Shown piece by piece: positions 31,695-52,430 of a stretch of DNA of 64,000 nucleotides. The stretch spans positions 682,001 to 746,000 of the forward strand of contig CP046865.1 of assembly GCA_039640505.1 (NCBI GenBank), read 5' to 3'. The notes below the pieces were generated by a model that ran no database searches, was not told the origin of the DNA, and saw only the letters and a list, made by a program, of their open reading frames with translations. The stretch is from Rhodobacteraceae bacterium Araon29 (GTDB lineage Bacteria > Pseudomonadota > Alphaproteobacteria > Rhodobacterales > Rhodobacteraceae). Numbering within the stretch: position 1 is the first letter of the stretch; every line of letters begins with the position of its first letter. The position numbers and the translations under genes are program-made.

Positions 31695-31771
31695 GCACCG
31701 GTAGCTCAGCTGGATAGAGTACTTGACTACGAATCAAGGGGTCGGGGGTTCGAATCCTCCCCGGTGCGCCA
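31695..31771 (+). tRNA. tRNA-Arg (ACG), left copy
   Basis: A 77-base gene with encoded CCA. The acceptor stem is GCACCGG with CCGGTGC, the anticodon loop is CTACGAA between CTTGA and TCAAG, so the anticodon is ACG (Arg). The T arm is GGGGGTTCGAATCCTCC. It is the host gene next to the integrase; an identical copy is at 50561. Confidence 0.97.
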
Positions 31772-31772
31772 C
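31695..31772 (+). repeat. 78-bp direct repeat, left copy (attL-like)
   Basis: The tRNA-Arg gene plus one base is repeated exactly at 50561-50638. Flanking bases differ on both sides, so the repeat is bounded by the tRNA itself. It marks the likely left end of the integrated element. Confidence 0.85.
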
Positions 31773-31828
31773 ACTTTCAGACTAACTTACTGAAATTCCT
31801 TCGAGTTTAATCATCGAGGGAGACCGTC

Positions 31829-32953
31829 GTGTCACACATTTCGTACACAATTTGTCGTTCAGGCACCTATTACTACAACAGACGTGTGCCAAAACACGCA
31901 GTGAAAGATTATGGGTCATTCATCAGGCAAGCTCTGTCCAGATGTCCTATTGAAGCTGAAGCCTATGCAAAACGTCTGAGTGATGTACTTGAGGGGTCAT
32001 GGAGTAATCATGCAGGTAGGATACAGCCAGTAGATATTCCTGCTTTATTGATCAGCTTTAAACCTCGTTCCTTTGTCCTGTCTGAAATAGCCGACGAGTA
32101 CTTAACACTCAGGGACATAGATGAGAGGCCACCAAGGATAGCTTTGGCAGGATTTATAGCATTAGCGGGTGATCGAGATGTGAGTGAATACAGCAGAGAA
32201 GATGCCAAGCTGTATGTCCGCCACCTCGAAATGAAGGGCAATAAAACCGCTACGATCAGAAGAAGGATTAACAGCCTGTCAGCTATCCTCAGCTATGCCT
32301 ATGCGGAACTGGACTTGGACAAACGAAACCCCTTCTCAGGGTTGATCATCAAGGCAGAGGGAGAGGATAGCCATAAGAGAGGTACCTTCACCACTGAGCA
32401 GCTCAAGCAGGGATACGACAAAGCGCTAGCCTCAGGCAGTCAGGTAAAGCTGCTTATGCCTCTACTTGGTGAAACAGGCTGTAGACTGGCTGAGATAGTT
32501 GGACTGAGACTAGACGACATAGATCTTGAAAATGACCTGATCCACATAATACCTAACTCAGCGAGAAGATTAAAAACAAGAAACAGTCAAAGGGTATTAC
32601 CACTGGTTGGTTATGCAAAGCTGGCAGTGGAAGAAGCTCTCAAGCATTCAGACAACCAGCATCTATTCCCGAGGTATATCCGAGACGGAAAATGCTATGC
32701 CACCCATGCGTCCAATGCACTTAACAAATGGCTCAAGAATGACTTTGGTGGCCGTACTGCACATTGCCTCAGGCACACTTTCAGAGACCGCCTGAGAGCC
32801 GTAGAGTGCCCCATGGACATGATCGATCAGATAGGGGGTTGGAAATCCGTCAGCTCCATAGGAAATAGCTATGGTGAAGGATACCAACTGGAAAGACTGG
32901 AAGAATGGTTCAAAAGATTGCAGGGGGTTAAATGTCCTGCTCGAGAGCTTTAA
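31829..32953 (+). CDS. Tyrosine recombinase/integrase (complete)
   Basis: Catalyses site-specific integration and excision of the element at the tRNA. The product is 374 residues, from a GTG preceded by GAGGGAGA. The N-terminal arm-binding part starts with SGTYYYNRRVPKHAV. The core-binding SAM-like domain is around residues 85-160. Catalytic residues are visible: Arg in GETGCRLAEIVGLR (about 220), His and Arg in CLRHTFRDRL (about 312-318), and Tyr in GNSYGEGY (about 348). The gene starts 57 bases after the tRNA. A truncated relative has the same position behind the second tRNA. Confidence 0.93.
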   Translation: MSHISYTICRSGTYYYNRRVPKHAVKDYGSFIRQALSRCPIEAEAYAKRLSDVLEGSWSNHAGRIQPVDIPALLISFKPRSFVLSEIADEYLTLRDIDERPPRIALAGFIALAGDRDVSEYSREDAKLYVRHLEMKGNKTATIRRRINSLSAILSYAYAELDLDKRNPFSGLIIKAEGEDSHKRGTFTTEQLKQGYDKALASGSQVKLLMPLLGETGCRLAEIVGLRLDDIDLENDLIHIIPNSARRLKTRNSQRVLPLVGYAKLAVEEALKHSDNQHLFPRYIRDGKCYATHASNALNKWLKNDFGGRTAHCLRHTFRDRLRAVECPMDMIDQIGGWKSVSSIGNSYGEGYQLERLEEWFKRLQGVKCPAREL

Positions 32954-33728
32954 TCCTTTTTCTATGAGCTGCTTTCCGGCACTTATCAGAGCAATAATGT
33001 GAACTTTTCCTACGACCAAATCCAGTTCCAAAGGCAAACCACGATGGACAGATCGCACATTGTTTTAGTTGGGTTTGGTTTGTAACTGCTTGTGCAAATT
33101 GCACCCATAATGCTGCGGTCAGATTGATAGGGGAGATAGCAAAAAAAGGAGGCCCACCACCATGTCGCTTTCGAATATCTATTTTAACTTCACCGGAGAA
33201 AATTAACAAATCAGGGTCATCAAATCTTTCAAGAAATTTGAATCCCACAAGCTCTTCATGATTACCGCTTTGCTTAGCTTCGTTCCAAATTCTAATCGCT
33301 TCTGCCATTCTAGAAGCAGAACGTTGAATTTTTTCGAGGGGAACGGAAACCGGTGTATGACTAAACCCATCACACAAATCCAAACCCGGGATACCGTATT
33401 TATTTACAAATGCTAAAGCCGTTTGAGCACAGGTTGAGGCTGCACCATATTCCATAAAGGCAGCTGGATTATTTTTAAGAGGATTGCAAGCTTTAAGCGT
33501 TTCACTTTTTGCCAAAATATAAATGCCAAATTCAATACCATTGTATGTGTTATACCATTCATCAAGTATAGTTTGGACCCATCGCGGGGCGAATGCCTTT
33601 GACTTAAAATCGAAGGTTTCTATCGGTTTTTTGGGTTTGACTGTGATGTCCACATGTTGGGGTTTTAACTCCTCAAACGTGTACCCTTCTGGGCATTTTT
33701 GACACTCAAACCATAACAGATCGGTCAT
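32928..33728 (-). CDS. Zinc-finger-bearing protein of unknown function
   Basis: I do not recognise this 266-residue protein. Its last 50 residues contain CAICPSWFAFG then HYCSDKCRKAAHRKR, a C-x2-C...C-x3-C zinc finger followed by a basic tail, similar in style to the CGNR-type finger that binds nucleic acid. Another C-x2-C (FECQKCPEG) lies near the N-terminus. The middle is not similar to anything I know. It converges with the integrase gene, overlapping its end by 26 bases, and diverges from the HTH gene. It may be an element regulator; this is inference from position and the basic finger. Confidence 0.65.
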   Translation of the reverse strand: MTDLLWFECQKCPEGYTFEELKPQHVDITVKPKKPIETFDFKSKAFAPRWVQTILDEWYNTYNGIEFGIYILAKSETLKACNPLKNNPAAFMEYGAASTCAQTALAFVNKYGIPGLDLCDGFSHTPVSVPLEKIQRSASRMAEAIRIWNEAKQSGNHEELVGFKFLERFDDPDLLIFSGEVKIDIRKRHGGGPPFFAISPINLTAALWVQFAQAVTNQTQLKQCAICPSWFAFGTGFGRRKSSHYCSDKCRKAAHRKRIKALEQDI

Positions 33729-33860
33729 TATTTCAAATCCAGACGGTAAATAGACGACTTATCTATGTCACGATAAATTTTATTTTATAGTCTCGTCAAG
33801 TGATATATTAGTTTTTTAAATGATGGACAGTGCTGTCGCTTACAATTTGCGAGGATCAGA

Positions 33861-34091
33861 ATGAACAGAAATATCAATACCGCTCAACCTGGCAGCATCA
33901 AAAAACTAACTTATACAGTCCCTGAAGCTGCTGAAGTACTTGGGATCGGACGCTCTGCAGCGTACCAAGGGATCCATTCCGGCGAAATACCATCGATCAA
34001 AATCGGCAGTCGAATAGTTATCCCAAAGGTCGCCTTACAGCAAAAGTTACAAGGTGCGGGGCAGACAAGTCCCAAAGTAAAGTGCACATGA
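33861..34091 (+). CDS. Excisionase/AlpA-like helix-turn-helix protein
   Basis: A 76-residue protein with a winged-helix-type HTH from about residue 15 to 65: YTVPEAAEVLGIGRSAAYQG and the beta wing IPSIKIGSRIVIPKVAL. This is the HTH_17 / excisionase family fold, like AlpA of satellite phages and RDFs of integrative elements. The likely role is to control excision or replication gene expression. Its stop overlaps the next start in ATGA. The region upstream (33729-33860) is AT-rich and would hold divergent promoters for this gene and the zinc-finger gene. Confidence 0.85.
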   Translation: MNRNINTAQPGSIKKLTYTVPEAAEVLGIGRSAAYQGIHSGEIPSIKIGSRIVIPKVALQQKLQGAGQTSPKVKCT

Positions 34092-34465
34092 CACACCAGG
34101 GGTATAAACATGAAGGGCTCAAAGAAAAAAATTACGCAGCATACTCTACTCGGGAAACGTCCGAGAACTACGAAGGCGTTCTGTTTTATGTCAACCCAAA
34201 ACTCCGTGTGGCCGTTTGCCCAGATCACGCGCAGTTTTTAATACAACGCTGTGTCGGCACAAGGCATGGTGTAGCCCGCTTTGAGGCGTTCAGCTATCCA
34301 ACTGACATAATCGTTCTAAGGCGACTGCTCCATACGCGCTACGGCGTCCCTATGGGGCAGGTGATGCAATTAACCAGCGGAATGCCTAGGAAAGCGCGGA
34401 ATATTACCACACAGCTCAAAAAGTATACCCAACGCGTGCTGGTCTCGGGAATAGGTGCTTCTTAA
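34088..34465 (+). CDS. Hypothetical protein of the replication operon
   Basis: I do not recognise this 125-residue protein. The frame opens with a GTG at 34082; I prefer the ATG at 34088, which overlaps the stop of the HTH gene as ATGA. Its middle has a CPDHAQFLIQRC segment and the protein is mildly basic, with no membrane segment. It lies between the HTH and primase genes and so is probably expressed with them. Confidence 0.6.
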   Translation: MTHQGYKHEGLKEKNYAAYSTRETSENYEGVLFYVNPKLRVAVCPDHAQFLIQRCVGTRHGVARFEAFSYPTDIIVLRRLLHTRYGVPMGQVMQLTSGMPRKARNITTQLKKYTQRVLVSGIGAS

Positions 34466-34480
34466 TGTCAGAAACCCACC

Positions 34481-35146
34481 TTGGAACAAACGAGCGTTCA
34501 ATCTGCAAAATGCATCGAGGAACCAAATATGACCTGTGATGCTCTAAGGGCTGACAAAGACACTATAGCACGCTTCATATCGGAGATCACTCGAGACTGG
34601 AGCAATCATTCAAACGAAGACGGCTTATTCGAGGTTCGCTGTTTGGGCAAAGAACGAACGCCTGTCATTAAAAGCTTTGAACTGAAGGAATGTGACGATG
34701 CGGTGGATCTCGCTGTTCAAATGAACAACATCGGGCTGAACATCTATATGACGATTAACCCTATTAAAAAAAGTTCGGTGTGCAAAGCAGCCAAGGATGG
34801 GGATATCCTGCGCGCGCATTACACATTTGTGGACGCAGATGACAAACCTGGCATCAACGGATTAGAAGCGCTTACCTCTAAAATTGAGCCTGACTTGGTC
34901 GTGATTACTGGCACTATCCCACACCAGCGTCGGCATGCATACTGGCGGTTTGACGAACCCTGCACAGATTTGACGCTCTGGAGCAATCGGCAACTGGATC
35001 TGGCAAAGAGGTACAAAACAGATCCGGCGGTGAGCAATCCCTCTCGCATAATGCGTGTTGCTGGCACAGTCAGCTACCCGGATTTAACAAAGCAAGCGAG
35101 AGGGTATGTGAATGAGCTTACAGAAATGAGGGTTAATACGAGCTGA
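34481..35146 (+). CDS. RepB-like primase (archaeo-eukaryotic primase fold)
   Basis: A 221-residue protein with a hydrophobic-D-x-D motif, HYTFVDADDKPG near residue 110, in the position of the metal-binding motif I of AEP-type primases. Further on are VVITGTIPHQRRHAYWRFDEP and SNPSRIMRVAGTVSYP, which resemble the RepB/primase domain of small plasmids and satellites. It would lay primers for element replication. The start is uncertain: a TTG at 34481 opens the frame, and an ATG lies at 34529. It overlaps the helicase gene by one base (TGATG). Confidence 0.75.
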   Translation: MEQTSVQSAKCIEEPNMTCDALRADKDTIARFISEITRDWSNHSNEDGLFEVRCLGKERTPVIKSFELKECDDAVDLAVQMNNIGLNIYMTINPIKKSSVCKAAKDGDILRAHYTFVDADDKPGINGLEALTSKIEPDLVVITGTIPHQRRHAYWRFDEPCTDLTLWSNRQLDLAKRYKTDPAVSNPSRIMRVAGTVSYPDLTKQARGYVNELTEMRVNTS

Positions 35147-36477
35147 TGCCCTTATCGAGCATATATGAGTGGGATGAAATCGAACAGCCAATGGAGCCAT
35201 CAAAAACAGATGTTGGTCCAATTCCAATCCCATTAAAACTCAATAGGAAAGCCGCTTCACAAGCAGCATTGAGCGGTAAGAACTGGCATAACAATATGCT
35301 CGTGATGGTTGGCAGTTGGGTGGCTAAGGGTCTTGATGATGAGGAAATACATACTCTTGGGGCAGCCCATACAGTAGAGGGCTATACGGCCGAAGAGACA
35401 TCTTCAGAAGTGCAAAAGATGATTGATGGTGCGCGCTCAAAGGGATTTGATCAGAAGTCAAACAGTTTAAATCAGGCATTCATCCCGCCGCCAAGACAGA
35501 TTTTATCCATGATTGGTGATATTGAAATCAAAGATCCAGATTATCTGATCAATGGTATAATCGAAACACCTGCCTTGATCGGCCTGATAGGCCCATCGGG
35601 GTCAGGCAAAACTTTTGTCGCGCTTGATATGGCAATGTCAATAGCCACCGGCATCCCTTACCATGAGATGCAGGTAACAGCAGGAACCGTAATTATGTCG
35701 GCCGGAGAAGGCCATACTGGCATTCCCCGTCGCGTACAGGCTTGGTGTAGCCATTACGGGCAGAACATCAAGCGTGTAAATCTGGCACTAACCAGACGGG
35801 CGATTAATTTATTCGATGAAGAATATCGAAATGCGTTTTGCAGAGAAATCGAAACCATCGCTCTGTCTAAAGGCGAGCCAAAGTTAATTATCATTGACAC
35901 AGTTGCTCGGCATATGGGCGGTATGGATGAGAATAGTGCCAAAGACATGGGCGAGCTTATTCGTGCGGCTGACAAACTTAAAGATGACTATAACTGCTCT
36001 GTCATGCTGGTTCATCACACGGGTCATGCCAATCAGGATCGAGCGCGCGGCTCTACAGCTTTCAAAGGTGCGCTCGACACTGAAATCGTCGTCAATTCTC
36101 TTGGTGATCATGATATAACGGTGAAATGCCAAAAGCAGAAAGATGGCACGCCCTTCGATATGCGTCAGTTTGTCAAAGTCAGCATTGAGCCATCAATGGT
36201 TCTGCAACAAGTTGAAGTCAGTCGGAGGGCCAGCACCAAAGCAAATCCAAATGAGAAACTGGCTTTGGAAACATTGAAAGAGTGTTTGGCGGGTGACACT
36301 CCACTGGCAAAGGTTCCACTCGAAGACTGGCGAAAGGTTTTTTATGAACGACACACGGGTGACAAGCTTAAGAGCAAGGAAGCCGCGTTCCCCCGGGCGA
36401 GAGAACGTCTAGTTTTCAAAAACTTAGTAAACTGTAAGAGCGATTTTTATTCTTTGAACGACAGCGCGACATATTAA
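35146..36477 (+). CDS. RepA-like replicative helicase (AAA/RecA-type ATPase)
   Basis: A 443-residue protein. An N-terminal region of about 130 residues resembles the end of primase-helicase linkers. Walker A is IGPSGSGKTFVALD near residue 150, Walker B is PKLIIIDTVARHMGG near 245, and HHTGHANQDRARGSTAFKGALD carries sensor-like residues. This is the RSF1010-RepA/AAA_25 type of hexameric helicase, common in satellites. Together with the primase it would replicate the excised element. An iteron-like cluster follows the stop. Confidence 0.85.
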   Translation: MPLSSIYEWDEIEQPMEPSKTDVGPIPIPLKLNRKAASQAALSGKNWHNNMLVMVGSWVAKGLDDEEIHTLGAAHTVEGYTAEETSSEVQKMIDGARSKGFDQKSNSLNQAFIPPPRQILSMIGDIEIKDPDYLINGIIETPALIGLIGPSGSGKTFVALDMAMSIATGIPYHEMQVTAGTVIMSAGEGHTGIPRRVQAWCSHYGQNIKRVNLALTRRAINLFDEEYRNAFCREIETIALSKGEPKLIIIDTVARHMGGMDENSAKDMGELIRAADKLKDDYNCSVMLVHHTGHANQDRARGSTAFKGALDTEIVVNSLGDHDITVKCQKQKDGTPFDMRQFVKVSIEPSMVLQQVEVSRRASTKANPNEKLALETLKECLAGDTPLAKVPLEDWRKVFYERHTGDKLKSKEAAFPRARERLVFKNLVNCKSDFYSLNDSATY

Positions 36478-36570
36478 CGACAGTAGCAAAGTGTCGTTCG
36501 ATATTTTTACGACATCAGAACGACACTACACTACACACCCCTATAGGGGTGTAGTGTGTCGTTCGTCGTT
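36457..36570. repeat. Iteron and palindrome cluster, candidate replication origin
   Basis: AACGACA or its complement TGTCGTT occurs at 36457-36463, 36476-36482, 36492-36498, 36519-36525 and 36557-36563, with near copies between. In the centre ACACCCCTA meets TAGGGGTGT as a perfect 18-bp palindrome that extends outwards imperfectly through the last two repeats. It begins inside the helicase gene's 3' end and runs into the gap. Position next to primase and helicase genes suggests an origin; a terminator between convergent genes is the alternative. Confidence 0.5.
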
Positions 36571-36647
36571 GTGTTTGTTTTGAACTTCTGCAAGAAGAGC
36601 TTGTGCACTCTACGTTTTCCACTTTCCAATCTATAAAAAGATCATAC

Positions 36648-37076
36648 TTACTCATGCGAGTTTGAATATCGCTCGTCTTCCCATCGCTCAATCATTCGGC
36701 TCAATTCATCTGGCGTCATCTCAGCAGAACTCTTATCCAATAAACTTGTGTCAGCATCTTTTCCAAGATCACCGGCTAATTCTAGCGCTGTTCGTGCGGC
36801 GGACACTTTGGCACTGGCAGGCGTTTCCGGATCTAGCATCACCTGCCGCAAAGTGTCACCTGACAAGTTGGCAAGTTCGCCTTGATAAAGCGTTTGTCGA
36901 GCCTGCCGCAATAACGGTGATATTGCCGGGTTCCGAGTCAATTCATAAGCTGCTTGCTTTGGAAAAGCATATCCCGCCATGCGTGCAGCTTCGGTGGGAT
37001 TACGGCGCTCCACTACGTGGTATCTGACAAATTCTTTTTGCTGTTCAGTAACCGACCTTTTTCGAACCTGACCCAT
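36648..37076 (-). CDS. Terminase small subunit-like protein
   Basis: A 142-residue protein. Its first 60 residues have the Terminase_2 / small terminase pattern: SVTEQQKEFVRYHVVERRNPTEAARMAGY followed by KQAAYELTRNPAISPLL, that is, a DNA-binding HTH followed by a helix. An acidic tail follows. The small subunit chooses the DNA to be packaged. A lone TerS without large terminase or structural genes is the hallmark of satellites that redirect a helper phage's packaging machine. It is transcribed towards the helicase. Confidence 0.8.
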   Translation of the reverse strand: MGQVRKRSVTEQQKEFVRYHVVERRNPTEAARMAGYAFPKQAAYELTRNPAISPLLRQARQTLYQGELANLSGDTLRQVMLDPETPASAKVSAARTALELAGDLGKDADTSLLDKSSAEMTPDELSRMIERWEDERYSNSHE

Positions 37077-37426: not shown

Positions 37427-37888
37427 ATGGAAGTTAGCTCAATTGAACGGGTTGTCGAAGATCTTGCCGTGATGAATAGCAAGCTTTTGTTGCTTATCGG
37501 TGCACCAGACTCAGGAAAAAGCAATTTGCTAGGAGAACTGGCCAAACGTCGGCAACTGAAAATCCTAAACGTTGGCGCCGCACTGGGGCAAGAACTGCTT
37601 ACAATTGCAAGCCCAAGAAGAAATATTGATGCCATCGATTTGCTGAAAAGCTTGTCGGATGAGTTCTCGCAAAACGATCTACTTCTCATGGATAACCTTG
37701 AAATTTTGTTCGACCAAGAATTGAAACTTAGTCCTTTAGATATCCTTAAACGTCACTCCCAAGCGCGATGCGTTGTGGCTATTTGGCCGGGCGAACTTAA
37801 AGACAAAAGATTGACCTATGCCAAAATCGGGCACCCAGAATTTCGTGAATACAGCTGTGATGGCGTGGTCCCGTTCAGGCTAAATTAG
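37427..37888 (+). CDS. brxF: BREX type 3 P-loop protein BrxF
   Basis: A 153-residue P-loop ATPase. Walker A is [14 protein letters not shown] near residues 22-35 and Walker B is [13 protein letters not shown] near 84-96. The size, the short fold and the position just before brxC match BrxF of type 3 BREX, for which no other use is known. Its exact role in defence is unknown; it may supply ATP-dependent regulation of the complex. The start follows an AT-rich region and the gene ends 14 bases before brxC, with AAGGAG upstream of the latter. Confidence 0.88.
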
Positions 37889-37902
37889 AAGGAGAAAAAA
37901 AG

Positions 37903-40900: not shown

Positions 40901-41633
40901 CCTCGATGCATTGTCGAAGAGCCGAACTGGACAGAACGGATCCGAACACCGGCAGACACTCGCAAAGCTCAAAAAGGACTACGTGACTGCGTATGTCAGC
41001 ATGCACAGCAAGGCGCGTCTCGGAGTGTCCGAAGACAAGACAAAGACTACACTGCGCAAAGACACTAGACTTCTTGCAATGCGGGCTTTGGCGAATATCT
41101 CGCTGATGCCGACAAGCCAGCTCACCACGTTTGAAGAGAAGCTCGACAAGTTGAAGAGCTGCGCCTCGCTGATCGACTCCGAACTGGCGGTCAGCCCGGT
41201 TTGCCCGCACTGCAACTTCCGCCCGGCAAATGAGCAGGGAGACATGCTACCCGCGGCCAATGTGCTCAAGCAGCTCGATGACGAGCTCGATCAGCTGCTG
41301 GACGGATGGGTGCAGACGCTTCTCGACAACCTCGAGGATCCGATCATCCAGTCGAACTTTGAATTGCTGAAGGAAGGCTTCCGCAAGATCGTCACCGGCT
41401 TTGTCGTCAGCAAGTCATTGCCCGATCCCGTCACGCCCGAGTTCATCAACGCGGTGCAAGAGGCACTTTCCGGCCTCGACAAGGTTGTCGTCTCGGGCGA
41501 AGATATTCGGCAAGCTCTGCTAAATGGTGGATCACCTGCAACACCCGAAGATCTGCGCAAGCGGTTCGATGCTTTCATGAACGACCGTTGCAAGGGCAAG
41601 GACACCACCAAGCTACGCTTTGTGGTAGAGTGA
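37903..41633 (+). pseudogene. brxC: BREX ATPase BrxC, split by a -1 frameshift at a G7 run
   Basis: Two overlapping frames encode one protein. The first (37903-39225) gives residues 1-405, with Walker [14 protein letters not shown] near 66-78 and Walker [14 protein letters not shown] near 175-187. The second frame gives the rest to 41633. The join is exact at the seven G at 39111-39117: HRLTTGG in the first frame continues as [19 protein letters not shown] in the second, the normal BrxC continuation. A one-base shift back (or one more G) restores about 1243 residues, the expected length. Without it the product ends in an unrelated 34-residue tail. A late C-x2-C (CPHCNFRP) is present. BrxC is essential in BREX as studied elsewhere. 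The gene may be phase-variable, programmed to slip, or mis-sequenced; it is not decayed otherwise. Confidence 0.9.
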
Positions 41634-41641
41634 TTTCGGCT

Positions 41642-41743
41642 ATGACACGCGACGAACTGTTAGAAGAGCTCAACTCTGTAGAGTGGAACGACATAGTGTT
41701 CAAAACAGCAGAATGTGCTCACCGAAGCCGGTTTGAAACTTAA
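41642..41743 (+). pseudogene. Remnant of an AlbA_2-type (schlafen-like) gene
   Basis: A 33-codon frame starts at 41642: MTRDELLEELNSVEWNDIVFKTAECA, then diverges and stops at 41743. The opening resembles the start of AlbA_2-domain ATP-binding proteins, where E-x-FK with upstream Trp is typical. The rest of that gene is missing. Another frame across the junction gives VLTEAGLKLNELRRDD and a stop at about 41765, as if an internal deletion joined two ends. It lies between brxC and pglX, where no gene is expected in a minimal type 3 locus. The identification is tentative. Confidence 0.45.
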
Positions 41744-41791
41744 CGAGCTGCGTCGAGACGACTAGCGTCAGCAGCAGAAAGACGACAACAC

Positions 41792-44557
41792 ATGAGTGAG
41801 ACACTCAATCTAAGCACTGGCGCAGACAGTGGAGAGGTGGAATGCCTCGGTCAGAAATTTCGAAGTGATAAGGCACGCCGCGCGCATTTCCTGGCCCTAT
41901 TGGCTGAGAAGCTGCAAGATACCACGTTTCGTGATCAAGAGGGCTTCCCGGTGGGAACCGATGAGGCAATCCTCGCCATGTCGGATCCGCCCTACTACAC
42001 GGCGTGTCCTAATCCTTGGCTCGCAGAGTTCGTGGAGCACTACGGTGAACCATACGATCCGGCCGTTGAATATTCCCGCGAACCTATGGCTGTCGACGTT
42101 TCGATTGGGAAATCTGATGCAGTATACAAAGCCCATTCCTATCACACTAAAGTTCCACATCTAGCCATTGTGCCGTCCATTCTACACTTCACTGAACCTG
42201 GTGATATTGTACTGGATGGTTTTGGCGGATCGGGCATGACAGGCATTGCTGCTCAGTGGTGCGGCGTCGCTTCTGCAGCCTTCCGACTTGAGATTGAAAA
42301 TGAATGGAAGAGTTTAGGCCAGACAGCCCCAAAATGGGGCCCTCGACGCGCCATCATCAATGAGCTTTCACCGGCAGCAACATCTATTGCCGCTGGACTG
42401 AATTTTCCATTCGATGCTCACCAATTCGCCGAGCGCGCGGAGAAAATTCTAAGCACGACCCAAGCAGAACTCGGCTGGATGTTCGAAACAACCCATACGG
42501 ACGGCACCTCCAAAGGGCGAATAGACTTCACAGTGTGGAGCGAGATTTTTACGTGCTCAAATTGCGCCGGGGAGATTATTTTCTTTGATGAGGCCTTTGA
42601 CCCCAAAACAAAGAAAGTTGGGAAGGAAATCACGTGCCCTCATTGCGCGGCAAAATCTACCAAAGAGAACATGGAGCTTGTCTTTGAGACTTTCATGGAC
42701 GTTCCGTCGGGCAACATTGATGAAAGGCCAAAACGCGTACCAGTACTAATAAAATATTCCATTGGAAGGAAAACCTTTCAAAAACGCCCCGATGAGTTAG
42801 ACCTAGAAGTAATCCGTAGAGCCGAAGCTCTGGATCTACCGGAGCACCTCCCAATACATACGCTTCCAGATTGCCAAATGACGCGTGTTGGTCGAATGAA
42901 AACAACAAAGACAAAGCACGTTCACCATATGTACTTTCCTCGAGAAGCGCACATTTTATCCGCGTTGTGGGGGCAAGCCAACAGCGAACCTGATGCACGA
43001 ATTCGAAATGCTCTCAAATTTTGGCTAGACAGTCATTTCATAAATATGTCGATTCTTAATCGATATCGACCTGAAGTATCTTTTCCCTACAATCCACTTA
43101 CTGGTGTATTCTACGTCCCGTCGCAAATCGCTGAAGCTGATCCTTTCAAGGCCTATAGCAATAAACTCAAAAGACTCATTACGGCATTTAGTCAAAAACA
43201 TGGTGTGTCTGGGAGCAGTATTGTCTCAACGGGGAGTGCGACACAACTAGACCTCCCAGATAACAGCATTGACTACGTGTTCACAGACCCACCGTTCGGA
43301 GAAAATATATACTATGCCGACCTTAACCAGATAATAGAGTCATGGCATGGCGTGTTTACCAACGTGTCATCTGAAGCAATCATTGATCGTGTTCGTGAAA
43401 AAGGCCTCCACGAGTACCAAGCTCTGATCAGAAGTGCGTTTTCCGAGTACTTTAGGGTGTTGAAGCCTGGAAGATGGATGACAGTGGTGTTTTCCAACAG
43501 CCGCGCTTCTGTGTGGAACGCAATCCAACTCGCGCTTCAGCAGTCAGGATTCGTTGTCGCTGAAGTCTCAGCTTTGGATAAGAAACAGGGCAGTTTCAAG
43601 CAGGTAACTTCGGCAACTGCAGTCAAGCAAGACCTCGTTATTTCCGTGTACAAACCCAATGGAGGGTTGGAGAAGAGGCTTGGAGAACGTGGTGCAGCTC
43701 CGGACACAGCATGGGAATTCGTTCAAACTCATCTACGCCAGCTGCCAGTGACCAAGTCTAATAAAGGCATTCTCGAGGTTGTCGTCGAGCGTGATCCGCG
43801 CCGCATCTATGACCGCATGGTGTCTTGGTTTGTCCGCCACGACTATCCCGTACCTCTCTCGACCGAGGAGTTCCTAGAGGGGCTACGCAATCGCTTCCCC
43901 GAGCGCGACGGAATGGTCTTTCTGCCAGAGCAGGTGGCGGGCTATGATCGAAAGCGTGCCCAGGCGGCCCAAGCTCCACAGATTGAACTCTTTGTCTCGG
44001 ACGAGCGCTCAGCCATCGACTGGCTGACAGACTTCCTGCGCAAGCGCCCTTCCACCTACCAGGACGTCCACCCTGAGTTTACGGTGCAGATGGGTGCTGG
44101 ATGGCGGAAGCACGAAGAGAAGCCTGAACTTTCTGCGCTGCTCGAAGACAACTTCCTGCGCTACGAAGGCAAAGATGACGTGCCGAGCCAGATCCACAAC
44201 TACTTGTCCACCAACTTCAAGGATATGCGGAACCGGGAGAAGTCGGATCCGCTGCTCAAATCCAAGGCGAAGGATCGCTGGTTTGTGCCTGACCCCAGCA
44301 AAGCGAAGGATCTTGAGCAGAAGCGCGAAAGGACGCTTCTGAAGGAGTTCGAAACCTACAAGTCAGCGACCAAACGTCAGCTGAAAGAGTCCCGCCTGGA
44401 AGTTCTTAGAACAGGCTTCAAAACGGCTTGGGCGGCGAAGGACTACAAGACGATAATCGGCATTGCCGAGAAGCTGCCAGATCAGACGCTGCAGGAAGAT
44501 GAAAAGCTGCTGCTCTGGTACGATCAGGCGCTCACGCGCACGGAGGCTGATGCATGA
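41792..44557 (+). CDS. pglX: BREX adenine-specific DNA methyltransferase (PglX, type 3 form)
   Basis: A 921-residue DNA methylase that marks the host genome so that BREX acts only on foreign DNA. Motif IV-like SDPPYY is at about residues 65-71, motif I-like DGFGGSGMTG at about 143-152, and a second TDPPFGENIYY at about 498-508. A zinc ribbon (CSNCAGE near 255 and CPHCAAK near 282) lies between. This split organisation matches the type 3 methylase PglXI rather than the type 1 PglX. The middle part, likely the target-recognition region, is visibly richer in A and T than the two ends. It overlaps brxHII in ATGA. Confidence 0.85.
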   Translation: MSETLNLSTGADSGEVECLGQKFRSDKARRAHFLALLAEKLQDTTFRDQEGFPVGTDEAILAMSDPPYYTACPNPWLAEFVEHYGEPYDPAVEYSREPMAVDVSIGKSDAVYKAHSYHTKVPHLAIVPSILHFTEPGDIVLDGFGGSGMTGIAAQWCGVASAAFRLEIENEWKSLGQTAPKWGPRRAIINELSPAATSIAAGLNFPFDAHQFAERAEKILSTTQAELGWMFETTHTDGTSKGRIDFTVWSEIFTCSNCAGEIIFFDEAFDPKTKKVGKEITCPHCAAKSTKENMELVFETFMDVPSGNIDERPKRVPVLIKYSIGRKTFQKRPDELDLEVIRRAEALDLPEHLPIHTLPDCQMTRVGRMKTTKTKHVHHMYFPREAHILSALWGQANSEPDARIRNALKFWLDSHFINMSILNRYRPEVSFPYNPLTGVFYVPSQIAEADPFKAYSNKLKRLITAFSQKHGVSGSSIVSTGSATQLDLPDNSIDYVFTDPPFGENIYYADLNQIIESWHGVFTNVSSEAIIDRVREKGLHEYQALIRSAFSEYFRVLKPGRWMTVVFSNSRASVWNAIQLALQQSGFVVAEVSALDKKQGSFKQVTSATAVKQDLVISVYKPNGGLEKRLGERGAAPDTAWEFVQTHLRQLPVTKSNKGILEVVVERDPRRIYDRMVSWFVRHDYPVPLSTEEFLEGLRNRFPERDGMVFLPEQVAGYDRKRAQAAQAPQIELFVSDERSAIDWLTDFLRKRPSTYQDVHPEFTVQMGAGWRKHEEKPELSALLEDNFLRYEGKDDVPSQIHNYLSTNFKDMRNREKSDPLLKSKAKDRWFVPDPSKAKDLEQKRERTLLKEFETYKSATKRQLKESRLEVLRTGFKTAWAAKDYKTIIGIAEKLPDQTLQEDEKLLLWYDQALTRTEADA

Positions 44558-47364
44558 CGCAAGCCCCCCAAGACTATGACATTGGCGCGTGGTGCTGGCA
44601 TGAACGACATGCCGCACCCTGCCGTGTCGTGGATCGGGAAGAAGTGTGGGGTGAGACGTCGTTTCGGGTTTGGTTGCCCAGCAAAGATGCCGTCGTTCGC
44701 GCGCAGTCGCGGGAGCTACGGCCGCTCGATGCCGTTCAAACTACAGTCGATCAGATCCTGCACACGGCCGCCGCGGCAAAGCTCCTGGATGCGATGGAAG
44801 ACAATCTGCTTCTGGCGCCGATCCAGTCAAGCGTTGTCCCTCTGCCCCATCAGCTCTATGCTCTAAACCGCGCTATGAGCCGGGATCGGATCCGCTATCT
44901 GCTTGCGGATGAAGTGGGGCTAGGCAAGACGATTGAAGCCGGCCTTATCCTTCGCGAGCTCAAGTTGCGCGGGATGGCGAAAAGGATCCTTATCGTTGCA
45001 CCCAAAGGGTTGGTCAGACAATGGCAGGCAGAGATGCGCCTTCACTTTTGTGAGAATTTCCAGTTCATTGAGCCGTCAGAACTTTCGGCATATCGACAAT
45101 TCCGGGCTGATGACGAAAATCTCTGGCGATTGCATGATCAAGCAATTTGTTCGTTGGACTCAATTAAGCCGCTTGAAAAGCGGCGCGGATGGAGTGCAGA
45201 AAAGCTTAGCACTTATAACCGCGAACGCTTCGAAGACCTGATTTCGGCATCTTGGGATCTTGTGATAATTGACGAAGCTCACCGCATGGGAGGCAGCACA
45301 GATCAGGTTGCACGATACAAGTTAGGCGCAGCGCTTGCTGAAGCGGCCCCATACCTCTTACTTCTATCGGCAACGCCACACCAAGGAAAAACCGATCAGT
45401 TCCATCGCTTGATGCAGCTTCTCGACCGCGACTCCTTTCCGGATGAGAGCAGCATTTCCAGTAATCGTGTGCGCCCGTTTGTTGTGCGAACCGAAAAGAG
45501 GATTGCGATCGATGCAGAAGGGGAACCCCTGTTTAAGCCTCGTATGACACGCACGAAAGCGGTCGCCTGGTTGGACCGCCATACGGCTCAGCAGGGGCTG
45601 TACGAAGCAGTCACCGAATACGTTCGTCACGGTTACAATCAAGCCATGGCATCAAAGCAAAGACACATCGGCTTCCTGATGATCCTGATGCAGCGCTTGG
45701 TGACGTCCAGCACCGCAGCCATCCGGGCAACCTTGGAAAAGCGCCTACTCGCTCTGGATGACGACCAGCGACAGCTTCAGCTCTTTTCCGCTGAAGGCGT
45801 CGGGGACTGGCATGAGCTGACGGGTGATGATCAGATTGGTGTTGCCATGGCATTTGAAGCTTTGGGCGATGAACGAAAAGACGTTAAGGCACTTTTATTT
45901 ATTGCGCGCGAAACTGAAGCACAGGGAACTGATGCCAAAGCCGAAGCACTCTTGGAGCAGATCTACAAGATACAACAGGAAGAAAATGATCCTCAGTTGA
46001 AAGTTCTGGTGTTCACAGAATTTGTTCCAACACAAGCTATGCTCGCGGAATTCCTTGAGAGTAGGGGCTTCTCAGTTGCAACACTGAATGGCAGCATGGA
46101 TCTTGAAGCGCGTGGGCGAGCTCAGCGGAAATTTTCCTCAGATGTGCGTATACTGATCTCAACGGATGCTGGAGGTGAAGGCCTTAATCTTCAATTCTGT
46201 CATATCATTATAAACTTCGATATGCCGTGGAACCCTATGCGGGTTGAGCAACGGATCGGTCGAGTGGACCGTATCGGTCAGCCTCATGTTGTGCGCGCAA
46301 TCAATTTTGTACTCGAAGATACTGTGGAGCATCGTGTTCGAGAGGTTCTTGAAACTAAGCTCGCAGTGATCGCCCAGGAATTTGGTGTCGATAAAGTTGC
46401 CGATGTAATGGATTCAGTCGAGGCGGAGCCACTGTTTGATGAGTTGTTTGTGCAAGGACTTCAGGATCCTACTTCGATTGAATTAGAATGCGAAACAGCC
46501 ATTATAAAACTGCGATCCACTCTGGAAGAACATCAAAAAAACACTGATCTTCTAGCTGATGGGCATGATCTGGAGCCTGATGACGCTAGAAAGTGGCGTG
46601 ATCATCCGGCGCAGTTTTGGCTTGAGCGAGCAATTACAACTGGGCTACCTGTGCGGGGGGGAGAAGCCAAGAAAGAAGGTGACACCTGGCGGATACGGTG
46701 GACTGACGGCACCGAATCATCTTCGGTGTGTTTCGATGCGCGAACAGCGGGCGATCGGCCGGAAGCTGAGTGGGTCACGCTGGAAGATCCAAGAGCGCAG
46801 GCTTTGATCGCTGATCTTCCGCGTTGCATCCCTGGTCAACCTGTACCCGCCGTTCGCATAACAGGCCTGCCTGACAGTGTGAAAGGCGTTTGGTCGCTAT
46901 GGGAAGTCAGTCTGGCAGCTGACAATTTCAGCCGTCGTCGCTTCTTATCCATTTTCGTCAATGATGAAGGGCGCGCCTTCCAGCCGACCGCAAAGCGCAT
47001 TTGGGATATGCTTCTGACGGAGCAGGTCGAGCCGATTGGTGCCAATCAGATTGAGGCACCGTACGACTGGTTTGAGAGATCGAAAGGGGCTGCGGTCACG
47101 CAAGGTGAGCGAGTGTTCTTTGATCTTGTGGCAGGGCACAAGGTTCGGATCGAGGAAGAACGTGAACGCGCACTCTACGCTTTCGAAGCTCGACACAAGG
47201 CGATTGGCAGAGTGGGGCTGCAGACTGTACGTGATTATCGATGGAAGCGTCTGCAGAAAGAGCATGAAGCTCGGATCGCACAGCTAGATTCTGCGGCATG
47301 TTACTCGCCAGCTCTCAATGCACTCACAGTTTTGAGAATTGGCGAAACGGTAGCTGGTGCATGA
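44554..47364 (+). CDS. brxHII: BREX SNF2/DEAD-type helicase BrxHII
   Basis: A 936-residue superfamily 2 helicase/translocase. Walker A is LLADEVGLGKTIEAGLIL (about residues 116-133), the DEAH box is VIIDEAHRMGG (about 237-247), motif III is LLLLSATPHQGK, and the C-terminal helicase motif VI is VEQRIGRVDRIGQ (about 565-577). This is the SNF2 (RapA-like) class found in type 3 BREX as BrxHII. It would use ATP to translocate on DNA during phage exclusion. The start overlaps pglX by four bases and the stop overlaps the pglZ start, so the three are translationally coupled. Confidence 0.9.
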   Translation: MTQAPQDYDIGAWCWHERHAAPCRVVDREEVWGETSFRVWLPSKDAVVRAQSRELRPLDAVQTTVDQILHTAAAAKLLDAMEDNLLLAPIQSSVVPLPHQLYALNRAMSRDRIRYLLADEVGLGKTIEAGLILRELKLRGMAKRILIVAPKGLVRQWQAEMRLHFCENFQFIEPSELSAYRQFRADDENLWRLHDQAICSLDSIKPLEKRRGWSAEKLSTYNRERFEDLISASWDLVIIDEAHRMGGSTDQVARYKLGAALAEAAPYLLLLSATPHQGKTDQFHRLMQLLDRDSFPDESSISSNRVRPFVVRTEKRIAIDAEGEPLFKPRMTRTKAVAWLDRHTAQQGLYEAVTEYVRHGYNQAMASKQRHIGFLMILMQRLVTSSTAAIRATLEKRLLALDDDQRQLQLFSAEGVGDWHELTGDDQIGVAMAFEALGDERKDVKALLFIARETEAQGTDAKAEALLEQIYKIQQEENDPQLKVLVFTEFVPTQAMLAEFLESRGFSVATLNGSMDLEARGRAQRKFSSDVRILISTDAGGEGLNLQFCHIIINFDMPWNPMRVEQRIGRVDRIGQPHVVRAINFVLEDTVEHRVREVLETKLAVIAQEFGVDKVADVMDSVEAEPLFDELFVQGLQDPTSIELECETAIIKLRSTLEEHQKNTDLLADGHDLEPDDARKWRDHPAQFWLERAITTGLPVRGGEAKKEGDTWRIRWTDGTESSSVCFDARTAGDRPEAEWVTLEDPRAQALIADLPRCIPGQPVPAVRITGLPDSVKGVWSLWEVSLAADNFSRRRFLSIFVNDEGRAFQPTAKRIWDMLLTEQVEPIGANQIEAPYDWFERSKGAAVTQGERVFFDLVAGHKVRIEEERERALYAFEARHKAIGRVGLQTVRDYRWKRLQKEHEARIAQLDSAACYSPALNALTVLRIGETVAGA

Positions 47365-49355
47365 TGAGTATTTGGGCTGATCATATCCTGCGGGAATTTC
47401 CCGTAGATCTTTCTCGCTTTTGGATCGCCTTGGATCCCGATGGAATTCTTTTGGATGAGACCATTTTGTTTGGGCTTCGCGAGCGCGATTTTGGGGTTCT
47501 TCCGTTCGAAGATTCTGTTTCGTTTAGGGCCGAGTACGAAGCGCGTTACCGATCCGCATGGGATAGGGGTGAGAAAGGTTCCGCGAAGGCACTTATTCTG
47601 CAGTGGCAGGGAGTGGACATCAACTCGCTTCCTTGGGACTACATCAGAGCAGCACGGCAAGTCAGCCTGAGCTTGGCTGATCTCTTACCCAACCTGAATT
47701 ATGGTGTCGTCCGCAAGCTTGATTCTGAACACCACGAAGGGCTCTTCCAGGCCTACCAGAAGCACGCGTCGCAGCAGCTTGGAGAGCGAGCGACCAAGGA
47801 TTTTATTCTCACGCACATCTTCAGTTTAAGCCCGTATCTGCTGAATCGGCCGGAGGATTTCTGGCGCGAAGCGCTGCGGCTTCATTATCGCGGTGTGGGC
47901 ATTCCCAGTCTATTAGCAGACCATGTCGCAACTGTCCTTCGGGACACAACTCTTGGCAGTCTTCCGATTAGTGAACTACTCGCCTCAAAGTCTTTTATGG
48001 TGCGCGCCATACAGGATTCTTGGGCTCGTTTCGTCTCACTACATGGCGTTGAGACTGATGCCTGCGATGGGGGACAGGAGCCATTCGAATACCATGCATT
48101 CGATTTGCCATTTGATCACCCCGACGTAAGGGTGATCATCGACACCATGTTCCTTGAAGGAGCCATTCAACCCATTAAAGCAAGCGTTCGTCCTTCGCAC
48201 CTTCCCGGTTGGATACAGGTTGGCCTGATCGATCATCCTCAGTCACTTGCCCATTTGGTGGCGGAGGGAGTGAAAAGGATAGAGGTGGGTCTACCGTCGG
48301 AGGGTGCGTCGCATAGAGATTGGGTAGAAACGGCGCGCCGCTTGGGAGAACTCATCTACCGCTTCAACGAACTGAAGGCGGTGGATGCAGATAGCCTGCA
48401 GAAGCAACTCCAGAGCTTGCAAAGAGAAGTCGATGCTCGCCTCAAGGATTGGGTGCTTCAGCATTTTGCAGACTTGCCCTCTCTACCAGTTGCAAAGGCG
48501 CCAGTGATGGTACATCATGTGCCGCGCTATCTCGCAATGCGTAGAGGCTTTGGCGAAGACCGAATTGCTCTTCTTGTTTTTGACGGCCTGGCATTGGACC
48601 AGTGGGCTCAGATCAGGGAGTACTTGTCGACCAAGCTTCCCGCTTTTTCTGCCGACGAGGGCGGCTGCTTTGCGTGGCTGCCGACGTTGACATCCATCTC
48701 TCGCCAGGCACTCTTTTCAGGCCTGAAACCCCGAGAGTTCCAAGGCTCGCTGGATACTACAGCGAAAGAACCTTCGCTTTGGATTAATTTCTGGCAAGAA
48801 AATGGGCTTACAAAGCGTGAAGTTGTATTTACAAAGGGCATAAAGTTGACTGAACAGCTAGGCGCGCTCGAAGATACACTCTCGAAACCAACAATAAAAG
48901 TGGCTGGAATTGTTGTCGATATGATTGATGAACTCGTTCATGGAGCAATACTCGGGAAACGTGGGATCACCGGGCAAATTCGCGAGTGGTGTGAGACTGG
49001 CTTCATCGAAACGCTATTTTGCATGCTCCGTAAGCATGGGTATCATATTTACCTGACGTCAGATCATGGCAACGTTGACTCAGATGGCATTGGACGTCTC
49101 AGCCAGGGTGTTATATCAGAAATGAAGGGGGAGCGGGTCAGGGCGTATCGTAACGAGAATCTAGCGCTATCTATTCCTAAAGAGATTGATACATTTCGGT
49201 TCGACAGCCCCGGACTTCCCACCGACTTCCTGCCAATTTTTGCAGGCAAACGTGGTGCATTTGTTCCCAAAGGAAAAAAAATTGTTGCTCACGGAGGCAT
49301 GACGTTGGAAGAACTTATTGTGCCTTTTGTAAAGATAACAATGAAGAAAGAATAA
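47361..49355 (+). CDS. pglZ: BREX alkaline-phosphatase-like protein PglZ
   Basis: A 664-residue protein. The frame reaches back to 47298 but I choose the ATG at 47361 (MMSIWADHILREFPVD), which overlaps the stop of brxHII as ATGA. The PglZ domain of the alkaline phosphatase superfamily occupies the second half: VFDGLALDQW near residue 405 (metal-site Asp), LTSDHGNVDSDG near 567, and VAHGGMTLEELIVPFV near the end. In type 3 BREX, PglZ is a required core component; its substrate is unknown. It is followed by brxA after one base. Confidence 0.9.
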   Translation: MMSIWADHILREFPVDLSRFWIALDPDGILLDETILFGLRERDFGVLPFEDSVSFRAEYEARYRSAWDRGEKGSAKALILQWQGVDINSLPWDYIRAARQVSLSLADLLPNLNYGVVRKLDSEHHEGLFQAYQKHASQQLGERATKDFILTHIFSLSPYLLNRPEDFWREALRLHYRGVGIPSLLADHVATVLRDTTLGSLPISELLASKSFMVRAIQDSWARFVSLHGVETDACDGGQEPFEYHAFDLPFDHPDVRVIIDTMFLEGAIQPIKASVRPSHLPGWIQVGLIDHPQSLAHLVAEGVKRIEVGLPSEGASHRDWVETARRLGELIYRFNELKAVDADSLQKQLQSLQREVDARLKDWVLQHFADLPSLPVAKAPVMVHHVPRYLAMRRGFGEDRIALLVFDGLALDQWAQIREYLSTKLPAFSADEGGCFAWLPTLTSISRQALFSGLKPREFQGSLDTTAKEPSLWINFWQENGLTKREVVFTKGIKLTEQLGALEDTLSKPTIKVAGIVVDMIDELVHGAILGKRGITGQIREWCETGFIETLFCMLRKHGYHIYLTSDHGNVDSDGIGRLSQGVISEMKGERVRAYRNENLALSIPKEIDTFRFDSPGLPTDFLPIFAGKRGAFVPKGKKIVAHGGMTLEELIVPFVKITMKKE

Positions 49356-49356
49356 T

Positions 49357-50073
49357 ATGCAACCCACAAAACCTAGGATAGGATTTGATCGCTTTATCCG
49401 GCTCGAATGGGCAACAAAAGCGCTCGAAGTCAGGAATGGTCTAGCTGAGATTGCTGAGCTTGAAGCCATTCTGGGTGAAGCACATTCAGGACTAGCTGCC
49501 AAAAAGAAGACAAGAACTATTTTAAACCGGCTTTGGCTTGAGCCACGTGATGATATCGAGTTATTCGCGCAACGAGCAGCGGAGTTTTTTAACTCGGAGC
49601 GTGAGATCCCACCAGTTGTTTTGACCTGGGGAATGGCTATTGTGACTTATCCTTTCTTCGCGAGAGTTATTGAGATCGTGGGTCGACTAACTTCGCTTCA
49701 AAGCGAATGCTCTTCAGCTGAAGTTCACAGAAGAATGGAAGAGGTTTATGGGGAGCGAGAAGGAACACGCCGTATGACCAATATGGTTTTACAGTCTTTA
49801 GCAGACTGGGGTATCATTGCGCGGCATAACAAAGGGAAGCAGATCGCTCTAAAAGAACCCATTTATCTGGAGGGATCACAGGTAATTTCCTGGATAGTTG
49901 AGGCCTGTGTCTATACATCAGGGCGATCACTTTCCATCGCGGCCATTGATTACAATCCATTGCTATTTCCATTTCGATTGGGCGGGTCACTTTCGTATAT
50001 ATTGTCAGGTAGCGACGCACTCGAGTTGCGTGTGGACAGTGCTGGCAACCAGATTGTCACAATTCGGGATTGA
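49357..50073 (+). CDS. brxA: BREX protein BrxA-like
   Basis: A 238-residue protein without a recognisable enzyme motif. The N-terminal part (FDRFIRLEWATKALEVRNG) and its all-helical predicted character, plus the C-terminal SLSYILSGSDALELRVDSAGNQIV, fit the small helical BrxA/DUF1819 proteins that end type 3 BREX operons. The call relies mostly on position and size: it follows pglZ by one base and closes the cluster. BrxA is a DNA-binding protein in other BREX types. Base composition is AT-richer than in brxC. Confidence 0.7.
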   Translation: MQPTKPRIGFDRFIRLEWATKALEVRNGLAEIAELEAILGEAHSGLAAKKKTRTILNRLWLEPRDDIELFAQRAAEFFNSEREIPPVVLTWGMAIVTYPFFARVIEIVGRLTSLQSECSSAEVHRRMEEVYGEREGTRRMTNMVLQSLADWGIIARHNKGKQIALKEPIYLEGSQVISWIVEACVYTSGRSLSIAAIDYNPLLFPFRLGGSLSYILSGSDALELRVDSAGNQIVTIRD

Positions 50074-50560
50074 TTCAACTTAATGGTTCGCGAAATAAGA
50101 TTTCAATATTTTCGTATGCTTGATTTGTAAACCTTGTAATATTGGCCAATGTATATGGCCCATATTTTTGTTAAGTTTCTGGAACGGGCGGGTGCATGAT
50201 CAGGTTTGTGTGAGATAGTGTGAATTAGGTTCAAGTCAGTTTTTTTAAATTCTAAAGATTGAGAAACGCAGAAAATTGATACAGCGATCCATTATTGAAA
50301 AACTTGGCCAGATTGTACCGCCCAGGGGGGGCATGCATTACTTTCATAATTGTCTTTACTTACTTCGTTAACCACTCAGCAAAGGTTTTTCCTTAGGGCA
50401 GTGACAGCATTATCTCTGTCGTCACACTCTTGGACACACCTTGTCACACATTTGGTCAAAATTAGCACCCATTACGAAAAGATCTTCGATTGACAGCTGG
50501 AACCAGCCATGTGTACTGAATAACAGGAATTGATGTAAGTGACTGTTCTGAAAGGTATGA
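50074..50560. other. Noncoding gap between brxA and the second tRNA-Arg
   Basis: Nearly 490 bases without a convincing gene. It is AT-rich near brxA. A G7 run occurs near 50325. Near 50425-50460 there are several GTCACAC-type repeats, one of which (GTCACACATTT) also occurs at the start of the complete integrase gene; these could be arm-type integrase sites. No clear terminator for the BREX operon is visible. Confidence 0.4.
50490..50519 (+). promoter_or_regulatory. Possible promoter of the second tRNA-Arg
   Basis: TTGACA at 50490-50495 and TACTGA at 50514-50519 with an 18-base spacer, about 40 bases before the tRNA. The -35 is perfect and the -10 is weak. If active, the second tRNA copy can be expressed. 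Confidence 0.3.
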
Positions 50561-50637
50561 GCACCGGTAGCTCAGCTGGATAGAGTACTTGACTACGAAT
50601 CAAGGGGTCGGGGGTTCGAATCCTCCCCGGTGCGCCA
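50561..50637 (+). tRNA. tRNA-Arg (ACG), right copy
   Basis: Identical over 77 bases to the tRNA at 31695, including the CCA end and anticodon ACG. Upstream sequence is unrelated to that of the first copy, so expression would need its own promoter (a candidate lies at 50490). It probably derives from the integration event and represents the attR side of the element. Confidence 0.97.
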
Positions 50638-50638
50638 C
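50561..50638 (+). repeat. 78-bp direct repeat, right copy (attR-like)
   Basis: Exact copy of 31695-31772. The distance between copies is 18866 bases. It ends the first element and begins a second, decayed one, since another integrase follows on the same side. Confidence 0.85.
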
Positions 50639-51310: not shown

Positions 51311-51374
51311 CTGGACCTGTCGCGGAATTGTGTCGCTCCTTTAACCGCATATTATGCACTAAAGGAGAATACAC

Positions 51375-52401: not shown

Positions 52402-52430
52402 TCTCTATTCACGACATTCGCAAAAAATAA

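Follow-up and report, generated by a model that had tools for sequence, protein, structure and literature searches.

A PICI-like island at a tRNA-Arg gene of Rhodobacteraceae bacterium Araon29, probably a phage satellite, carries a type 3 BREX locus with a frameshifted brxC

We analysed a window of 64,000 nucleotides from Rhodobacteraceae bacterium Araon29 (GCA_039640505.1, contig CP046865.1, positions 682,001 to 746,000), in which an original prediction, made from the letters alone, had placed a complete type 3 bacteriophage exclusion (BREX) locus on a phage-satellite-like element at 31695-50638. These limits were upheld: two identical tRNA-Arg(ACG) genes enclose a unit of 18,866 bp, hereafter the island. 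The two genes agree at all 77 bases, with the next best match in the single-contig 3.66-Mb genome at 79%, and they lie within a direct repeat of 83 bases (31690-31772 and 50556-50638; 98% identical, spacing 18,866). The island integrase starts about 57 bp past the left tRNA-Arg. An integrase and attachment-site repeats occur together at a specific site, as in Gram-negative phage-inducible chromosomal islands (PICIs). In two genomes of the same genus, the left flank and a single tRNA-Arg are followed by other DNA (82.7% and 84.1% identity over 2,570 bases); these two genomes lack the island at that site. The left flank was not found in a genome of the same species, which is 62% complete.

Between the tRNA genes lie a left module of integration, regulatory, replication and packaging genes and, beside the right end, the BREX operon (Table 1). 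Pfam profiles (14 open reading frames, ORFs), PHROGs profiles (7 island ORFs), PADLOC profiles for BREX, and NCBIfam profiles were used for annotation. The predicted integrase, AlpA-like helix-turn-helix (HTH) protein, primase, RepA-like helicase and lone terminase small subunit (TerS) were borne out by Pfam or NCBIfam matches, that of the primase being weak. The predicted lack of capsid genes held as well: neither Pfam nor PHROGs recognized a capsid, portal or tail family among the scanned ORFs, nor, more broadly, any structural, lysis or conjugation family. As in Gram-negative PICIs, the regulator is of the AlpA type (TIGR01764, 9e-11). As candidates for the role of the Pri-Rep protein of PICI families, the island encodes a RepA/AAA_25 helicase and a primase-like protein in a separate ORF. 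An alignment of the island primase-like protein with those of two further elements retained the blocks DADD, PHxRxHxYW and NPSRxMR, the first of which we take to be catalytic; its predicted model (predicted local distance difference test, pLDDT, 41.7) was too poor and was left unused. Among viral contigs, the primase had no match and the integrase one weak match (27%).

Table 1. Features of the island and its right border (window coordinates).
Feature	Position	Strand	Evidence or remark
tRNA-Arg(ACG), left copy	31695..31771	+	ARAGORN; chromosomal side of the insertion site
Tyrosine integrase	31829..32953	+	PF00589 1e-17; phrog_1 3e-40
ORF266, function unassigned	32928..33728	-	Weak matches only; Cys-rich C-terminal segment (by eye)
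AlpA/Xis-type HTH (excisionase)	33861..34091	+	TIGR01764 9e-11; phrog_66 9e-5
ORF127, function unassigned	34082..34465	+	No Pfam match; phrog_36637 0.029, unknown function
Primase-like protein	34481..35146	+	PF16793 0.0066, below the PF16793 cut-off
RepA/AAA_25 replicative helicase	35146..36477	+	PF13481 3e-36; RSF1010 RepA 1g8y 1e-6
Putative replication origin	36456..36570	.	Two AACGACA-type iteron sets around GATATTTTTA
Terminase small subunit (TerS)	36648..37076	-	PF03592 5e-6; phrog_51 7e-7
brxF	37427..37888	+	NF033453 5e-50
brxC (DUF6079), in two frames that break at G7 39111-39117	37903..41633	+	Pfam, PADLOC
pglXI methyltransferase	41792..44557	+	PADLOC PglXI, 1308 bits
brxHII helicase	44554..47364	+	PADLOC BrxHI/BrxHII, 1394 bits
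pglZ type 3	47298..49355	+	NF033449 2e-204; true start probably near 47361
brxA	49357..50073	+	PADLOC BrxA 7e-56; no Pfam or NCBIfam match
tRNA-Arg(ACG), right copy	50561..50637	+	ARAGORN; presumed regenerated copy at the far end
Second integrase, truncated at the start of an IS3-type element	50726..51403	+	phrog_1 2e-11

The terS gene is an intact ORF of 142 amino acids. A scan of 2.9 million viral contigs with short peptide patterns, a method limited to close relatives, gave 17 loci, of which 15 are at 66-68% identity and two at 57-59%, and 61 columns are invariant across the island TerS and six phage-contig TerS sequences. One TerS-bearing contig, G300 (42.8 kb), encodes an integrase (phrog_1, 3e-27), a major head protein (phrog_9953, 7.5e-43) and a large terminase subunit (TerL; phrog_4758, 9.1e-63); another, G298 (35.9 kb), encodes a repressor, a primase-helicase, an exonuclease and tail fibres. 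Judged by these genes both are phages, and the island TerS is, on sequence, a close relative of the TerS of phages, one of them with an integrase. It does not clearly belong to an unrelated family, which the original prediction had named as evidence against itself. When the island was compared with five loci from G300 and G298, TerS was the sole clear match (1e-59); the helicase matched weakly (2e-5 over 95 residues) and the remaining island proteins scored above 0.01. Within the family, TerS was found in one of 295 genomes, that of the strain itself, and the TerS profile matched three of 385 genomes of the class, the own genome and two weak matches. Six of the best eight solved-structure matches to a TerS model (pLDDT 72.8) were small terminases, and this likeness counts as weak support because all had E >0.1.

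Immediately past the helicase stop codon we found, in this order, AACGACA iterons, the AT-rich stretch GATATTTTTA, more iterons and, within the second set at 36535-36552, the palindrome ACACCCCTATAGGGGTGT. According to PMC6092414, the origin of a PICI directly follows the replication gene on its 3' side and consists of an AT-rich region flanked by two sets of iterons; because its placement and its two iteron sets are as stated there, the island array has this origin feature, as far as sequence can tell. Predicted folding of this region in single-stranded form is far stronger than that of its shuffled versions (z -7.2; 0/200). The exact 18-mer also follows the helicase gene in G045 and G217, the G224 helicase is followed by a palindrome with the same 12-base core CCCCTATAGGGG, and variant cores stand behind other helicases (for example, ACACCCCTTTAGGGGTGT in L030). 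Among the 385 class genomes the 18-mer occurs only here. It was found in 35 viral contigs, against none for a control palindrome of equal composition. The helicase profile matches 25 of these 35 contigs, always with the 3' end of the helicase gene towards the palindrome, at 54-215 bases in 24 contigs and 1,802 in one. Two of the ten contigs without a helicase match, L205 and L208, appear to be cut by the contig end, with flanks like those of L188 and L196.

The iterons differ between elements and repeat within each, as judged from 24 distinct sequences with a helicase (21 from viral contigs plus the window, G045 and G217; L009, whose core differs, the ten helicase-less contigs and near-duplicates were left out). 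An element's own flanking iteron recurred on average 4.38 times in the preceding 122 bases, the arm itself excluded, compared with 0.02 times for the iterons of other elements, and at least once in 23 of the 24 sequences. At offset 2 the two arms have the same base in 93 of 120 positions (5,000 shuffles: mean 59.3, largest 75); of offsets 0-4 only this one stands out, and it was expected from a prior look at the sequences. The invariance of the core is not evidence, because the 18-mer search selects for it. In bacterial loci, the window included, 15 of 28 helicase genes are followed within 220 bases by an array that is significant in a 7-mer test against shuffles, compared with none of 25 assessable upstream controls (three further loci had too little upstream DNA for a control, and the G224 gene end was set by hand).

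Helicase relatives occur in 40 of the 295 family genomes, the own genome included. The closest, at 57%, is that of G045, within another integrase-bearing chromosomal element that has an integrase, a primase and a helicase, with no match to the island TerS. This small element, with its array, spans L060 5545-11948 (G045:C1), and a second copy of the helicase, which is broken, is found at G045:C1:2485927-2486492. The original prediction held that clear matches of the replication genes to plasmid systems would tell against a satellite. The helicase does match 99 plasmid records, of which 72 are predicted to be mobilisable, but only distantly (26-38% identity in the 15 rows listed), and its closest relative found in the family is in the G045 element; that objection is not clearly borne out. 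Roseobacter phage CRP-406 has a helicase match at 43% over half of the query.

Iteron arrays with a CCCC-TATA-GGGG palindrome were observed 3' of AAA_25 helicase genes at L060, L009, L014 and L177-L211, their hosts being phage-like contigs, contigs resembling capsid-forming PICIs (cfPICIs) and chromosomal elements. In the phage-like contigs L177 (at about 2214), L183 (5497) and L184 (8489), the 18-mer stands near a TerS-like gene (by eye) with no AAA_25 helicase nearby. The 11-kb contig L193 encodes a profile-checked integrase, helicase, TerL, HNH protein, head protein, protease and portal, with the same array, and can be read as cfPICI-like; we take it here as a cfPICI example. By eye, L209 and L187 (10-11 kb) also look cfPICI-like, with an integrase, helicase, palindrome and seeming TerL, HNH, capsid and portal genes. 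L193 shares with the island the integrase, the AAA_25 helicase and the origin-type array, whereas its TerL, HNH, head, protease and portal genes have no counterpart in the island's scanned ORFs, in which no head gene, and so no capsid of the cfPICI kind, was recognized.

The full set brxF, brxC, pglX, brxHII, pglZ and brxA was confirmed by PADLOC, in the type 3 order brxF-brxC-pglXI-brxHII-pglZ-brxA, and the predicted length of 12.6 kb stood (span 37427-50073); NCBIfam labels BrxF and PglZ 'BREX-3'. Its completeness did not stand. brxC is read in two frames (37903-39225 and 39126-41633, covering DUF6079 positions 1-407 and then 408-1238) that break at a run of seven G at 39111-39117. With one core gene thus broken, we classify the locus as BREX-3 that is probably inactive as assembled. 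We compared the best 80 of 166 brxC relatives found in a genome collection with the first brxC ORF as query: both parts were readable in 79, in a single frame in all 79, and the contig of the remaining relative (L132) holds the first part only. A programmed frameshift, suspected from tblastn rows reaching residue 438-440, was rejected on the strength of these 79 in-frame genes. The seven G residues make up a slippery heptamer (G GGG GGG), and slippage, bypass or a read error may each account for the break. Provided that the frameshift is neither an artefact of sequencing nor bypassed at the G run, BREX in the sequenced strain is probably off or low. Phase-variable pglX genes exist elsewhere.

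The closest relatives of this operon lie in other surroundings. In the top five of the 80 relatives, BrxC is 93-96% and PglX 50-68% identical; Phaeobacter sp. J2-8, Maritimibacter fusiformis and Ruegeria sp. ANG-S4 have type 3 BREX in the island gene order with BrxC at 93-96%. None of the 80 loci, of which 45 exceed 20 kb and the rest have less flank (flanks end at 10 kb), matched the island integrase, ORF266, AlpA, ORF127, primase, helicase or TerS at E 1e-4, and the helicase profile matched none. The combination of BREX with this backbone is therefore private to this strain among those compared. A tyrosine integrase occurs in the fetched flank of six of the 80, and no tRNA gene was found in the 20 loci scanned. 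The G+C content of BREX (0.516), compared with 0.454 in the left module and 0.453 in the left flank, agrees with a separate origin of the cargo. A 44.7-kb contig filed as viral that has type 3 BREX genes (L162) was discounted, since its first 1.2 kb reads as bacterial (by reading) and no integrase was found.

The sequence shows a tRNA-bounded unit, an integrase beside the left tRNA, AlpA, a primase, a helicase with an iteron array directly behind it, and a lone TerS of phage lineage, together with the whole BREX gene order, brxC being frameshifted, and no structural gene in the scanned ORFs. The island looks built for another phage's particles, because it combines an integrase, a probable origin and a phage-related packaging gene. 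It is probably a PICI-like phage satellite of 18.9 kb that integrated at tRNA-Arg(ACG) and carries a type 3 BREX cargo of 12.6 kb beside its right end. The satellite plan originally proposed is strengthened by the closeness of TerS to phage TerS and by an iteron array where PICIs have their origin, and loses the completeness of BREX. On this reading, a PICI-like satellite acquired a BREX locus that may now be switched off. On helper infection, AlpA and Int would recombine the two tRNA copies and so release the unit, the primase and helicase would initiate replication at the iterons, and the island TerS may displace that of the helper on the helper's large terminase, directing concatemers into helper heads. 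Two island copies would measure 37.7 kb, compared with 42.8 kb for the G300 contig, which may be incomplete. In a recipient the island would insert at the same tRNA, bringing along a BREX system directed against other phages.

Several observations weigh against a satellite. No helper was found, and no host is known for the phages that share the island TerS. A search of 50,697 phage records gave no match to TerS, and the TerL profile matched only one of five TerS-bearing records (G300), the other four of which may be fragments. None of the 295 family genomes contained the G300 head protein, a result that says little because it had no positive control. No pac or cos site was identified, terS being the only significant DNA in common with the TerS phages. 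The genes do not all point rightward, terS and ORF266 lying on the minus strand, and for this reason we write PICI-like and not PICI. Three relatives examined all lacked a match to the right flank, so that the exact empty junction is not demonstrable. The array is not specific to satellites, since it is also present in phage-like contigs and eight of the 35 18-mer contigs, several of them short, show no such helicase. It is common, not universal, 13 of the 28 bacterial helicase genes having no array by the 7-mer test, among them the palindrome-bearing G045 and G224. The distant plasmid likeness of the helicase and the broken brxC also count here.

An ordinary tRNA genomic island, moved by generalized transduction, vesicles or natural uptake, with a gained terS that no longer redirects packaging, would fit the missing packaging site and helper, and the related G045 element shows that an integrase, primase, helicase and array can occur without a match to this TerS. 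We nevertheless regard it as rather unlikely, since TerS is an intact 142-residue ORF with 61 invariant columns and its gene stands between the origin-like array and the cargo, where a useless terS would be expected to decay. The phage relatives of the integrase, helicase and TerS would also suit a prophage that lost its structural genes and had them replaced by BREX. This is improbable: no capsid, portal, tail or lysis family was recognized among the scanned ORFs, the TerS-sharing phages have no other clear gene in common with the island, and no head or tail gene was recognized by eye in the G045 integrase-primase-helicase element. The RSF1010 RepA-like helicase, with its 99 plasmid records, 72 of them predicted mobilisable, points towards an integrative mobilisable or plasmid-derived element using conjugation. 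We hold this to be very improbable, as the scanned ORFs contain no relaxase, coupling protein, type IV secretion system family or other conjugation gene (oriT was not searched), TerS has no role in conjugation, and the plasmid identities of 26-38% compare with 43% for phage CRP-406 over half the query.

It is possible, although we would not expect it, that BREX and the island are both inactive and the frameshift marks decay, a reading compatible with a satellite. The brxC frameshift is seen in the window and in none of the 79 readable relatives, and the neighbouring second integrase is broken; yet no other break was seen in recognized island genes, the BREX profiles match nearly end to end, and slippage or read error likewise typically changes the length of a G run. 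Instead of belonging to an origin, the palindrome behind the helicase gene might be a transcription terminator or a packaging site, given that a strong hairpin is predicted for it (z -7.2 as DNA) and that it stands near the TerS-like genes of L177, L183 and L184 (by eye). We think this unlikely, because no long T run follows it, element-specific iterons precede it, and the G045 element retains it although no packaging gene was recognized there.

A more far-reaching version of the satellite reading is doubtful. The island may be a living satellite that transduces whole BREX in helper particles, and its origin may represent an undescribed class, comprising an AAA_25 helicase gene and element-private iterons (CGACA, GGGACA, GGTACA, GGCACA, GCAACA, GTAACA, GTGACA) around a CCCC-TATA-GGGG palindrome, that is common to phages, cfPICI-like elements and TerS-only satellites kept apart by iteron 'addresses'; the brxC G7 run might switch BREX off during helper growth. 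If the island is mobile, a multi-gene 12.6-kb defence system would be able to travel inside phage particles. The array is a sequence tag linking phages and satellites of one replication strategy, usable to find more satellites.

Comparison with described systems draws on extracts of the papers cited. The idea of satellites for BREX-bearing islands is already in print: for tRNA-integrated prophage-like elements with BREX, Dnd or Zorya-Druantia-ARMADA payloads, a 2025 preprint suggests a satellite role (PMC12458937). Those elements share with the island a site-specific integrase, an excisionase, a tRNA site with direct repeats and a large defence cargo. They differ in having HUH endonucleases, repeats of 16-20 nt and few recognizably phage-derived proteins, with no terS named in section 11, whose two tested strains are both E. 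coli. The island differs in its phage TerS, in the iteron array that accompanies its AAA_25 helicase and in a repeat that takes in the whole tRNA, and its TerS adds a packaging gene to the idea; the suggestion that defence-laden tRNA islands are satellites becomes testable through terS, with the 66-68% TerS phage group as a helper lead. We saw no TerS-bearing example with type 3 BREX in the open-licence literature searched, and the string CCCCTATAGGGG occurs in no paper of the open PubMed Central (PMC) library.

Gram-negative PICIs of the EcCICFT073 type, as extracted from PMC6092414, resemble the island in a left int, AlpA, primase or replication genes, a 3' origin with two iteron sets and an optional terS, which is present in some PICIs. 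They are described there as transcribed one way, whereas the island has terS on the opposite strand, its helicase and primase in separate ORFs and a 12.6-kb cargo making up two thirds of the element; CCCCTATAGGGG is unmentioned for them in those extracts. The Vibrio phage-inducible chromosomal minimalist islands (PICMIs) share with the island the order int, overlapping gene, alpA, primase and the placement of defence genes behind the replication module or primase (PMC10803314). The same extracts give PICMIs a fis site and a DUF3987/DUF5906 primase, unlike the tRNA-Arg site and other primase family seen here, with no terS identified and a length of 6.1 kb for PICMI115; BREX is absent from that paper's text on PICMIs. 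P4-like satellites also carry defence cargo, but in hotspots of about 1-5 kb, and P2- and P4-like elements are said to be without systems as large as BREX (extracts of PMC9122126). In E. coli, BREX is reported only at hotspots 1 and 37, sites also able to hold P4-like satellites (PMC10121019, in the part used), while Vibrio europaeus has BREX I on integrative and conjugative or integrative mobilisable elements (PMC12824646) and V. cholerae has BREX on SXT integrative and conjugative elements (PMC12137116). The extracts of PMC11389934 and PMC12839542 hold nothing further on BREX with satellites.

Past the right tRNA-Arg, the window at 50726-52635 holds a second integrase of the island integrase's general kind and an IS3-type insertion sequence (IS). 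This integrase begins about 88 bp beyond the tRNA and is 27% identical to the island integrase over 187 columns; the next ORF but one is a transposase match (phrog_157, 4e-59). The broken gene is the remnant of a tandem second island at the same tRNA-Arg. Farther along, at 57452-57727 on the minus strand, a single IS3-type orfA-like ORF lies amid metabolic genes and, by eye, is probably an IS remnant.

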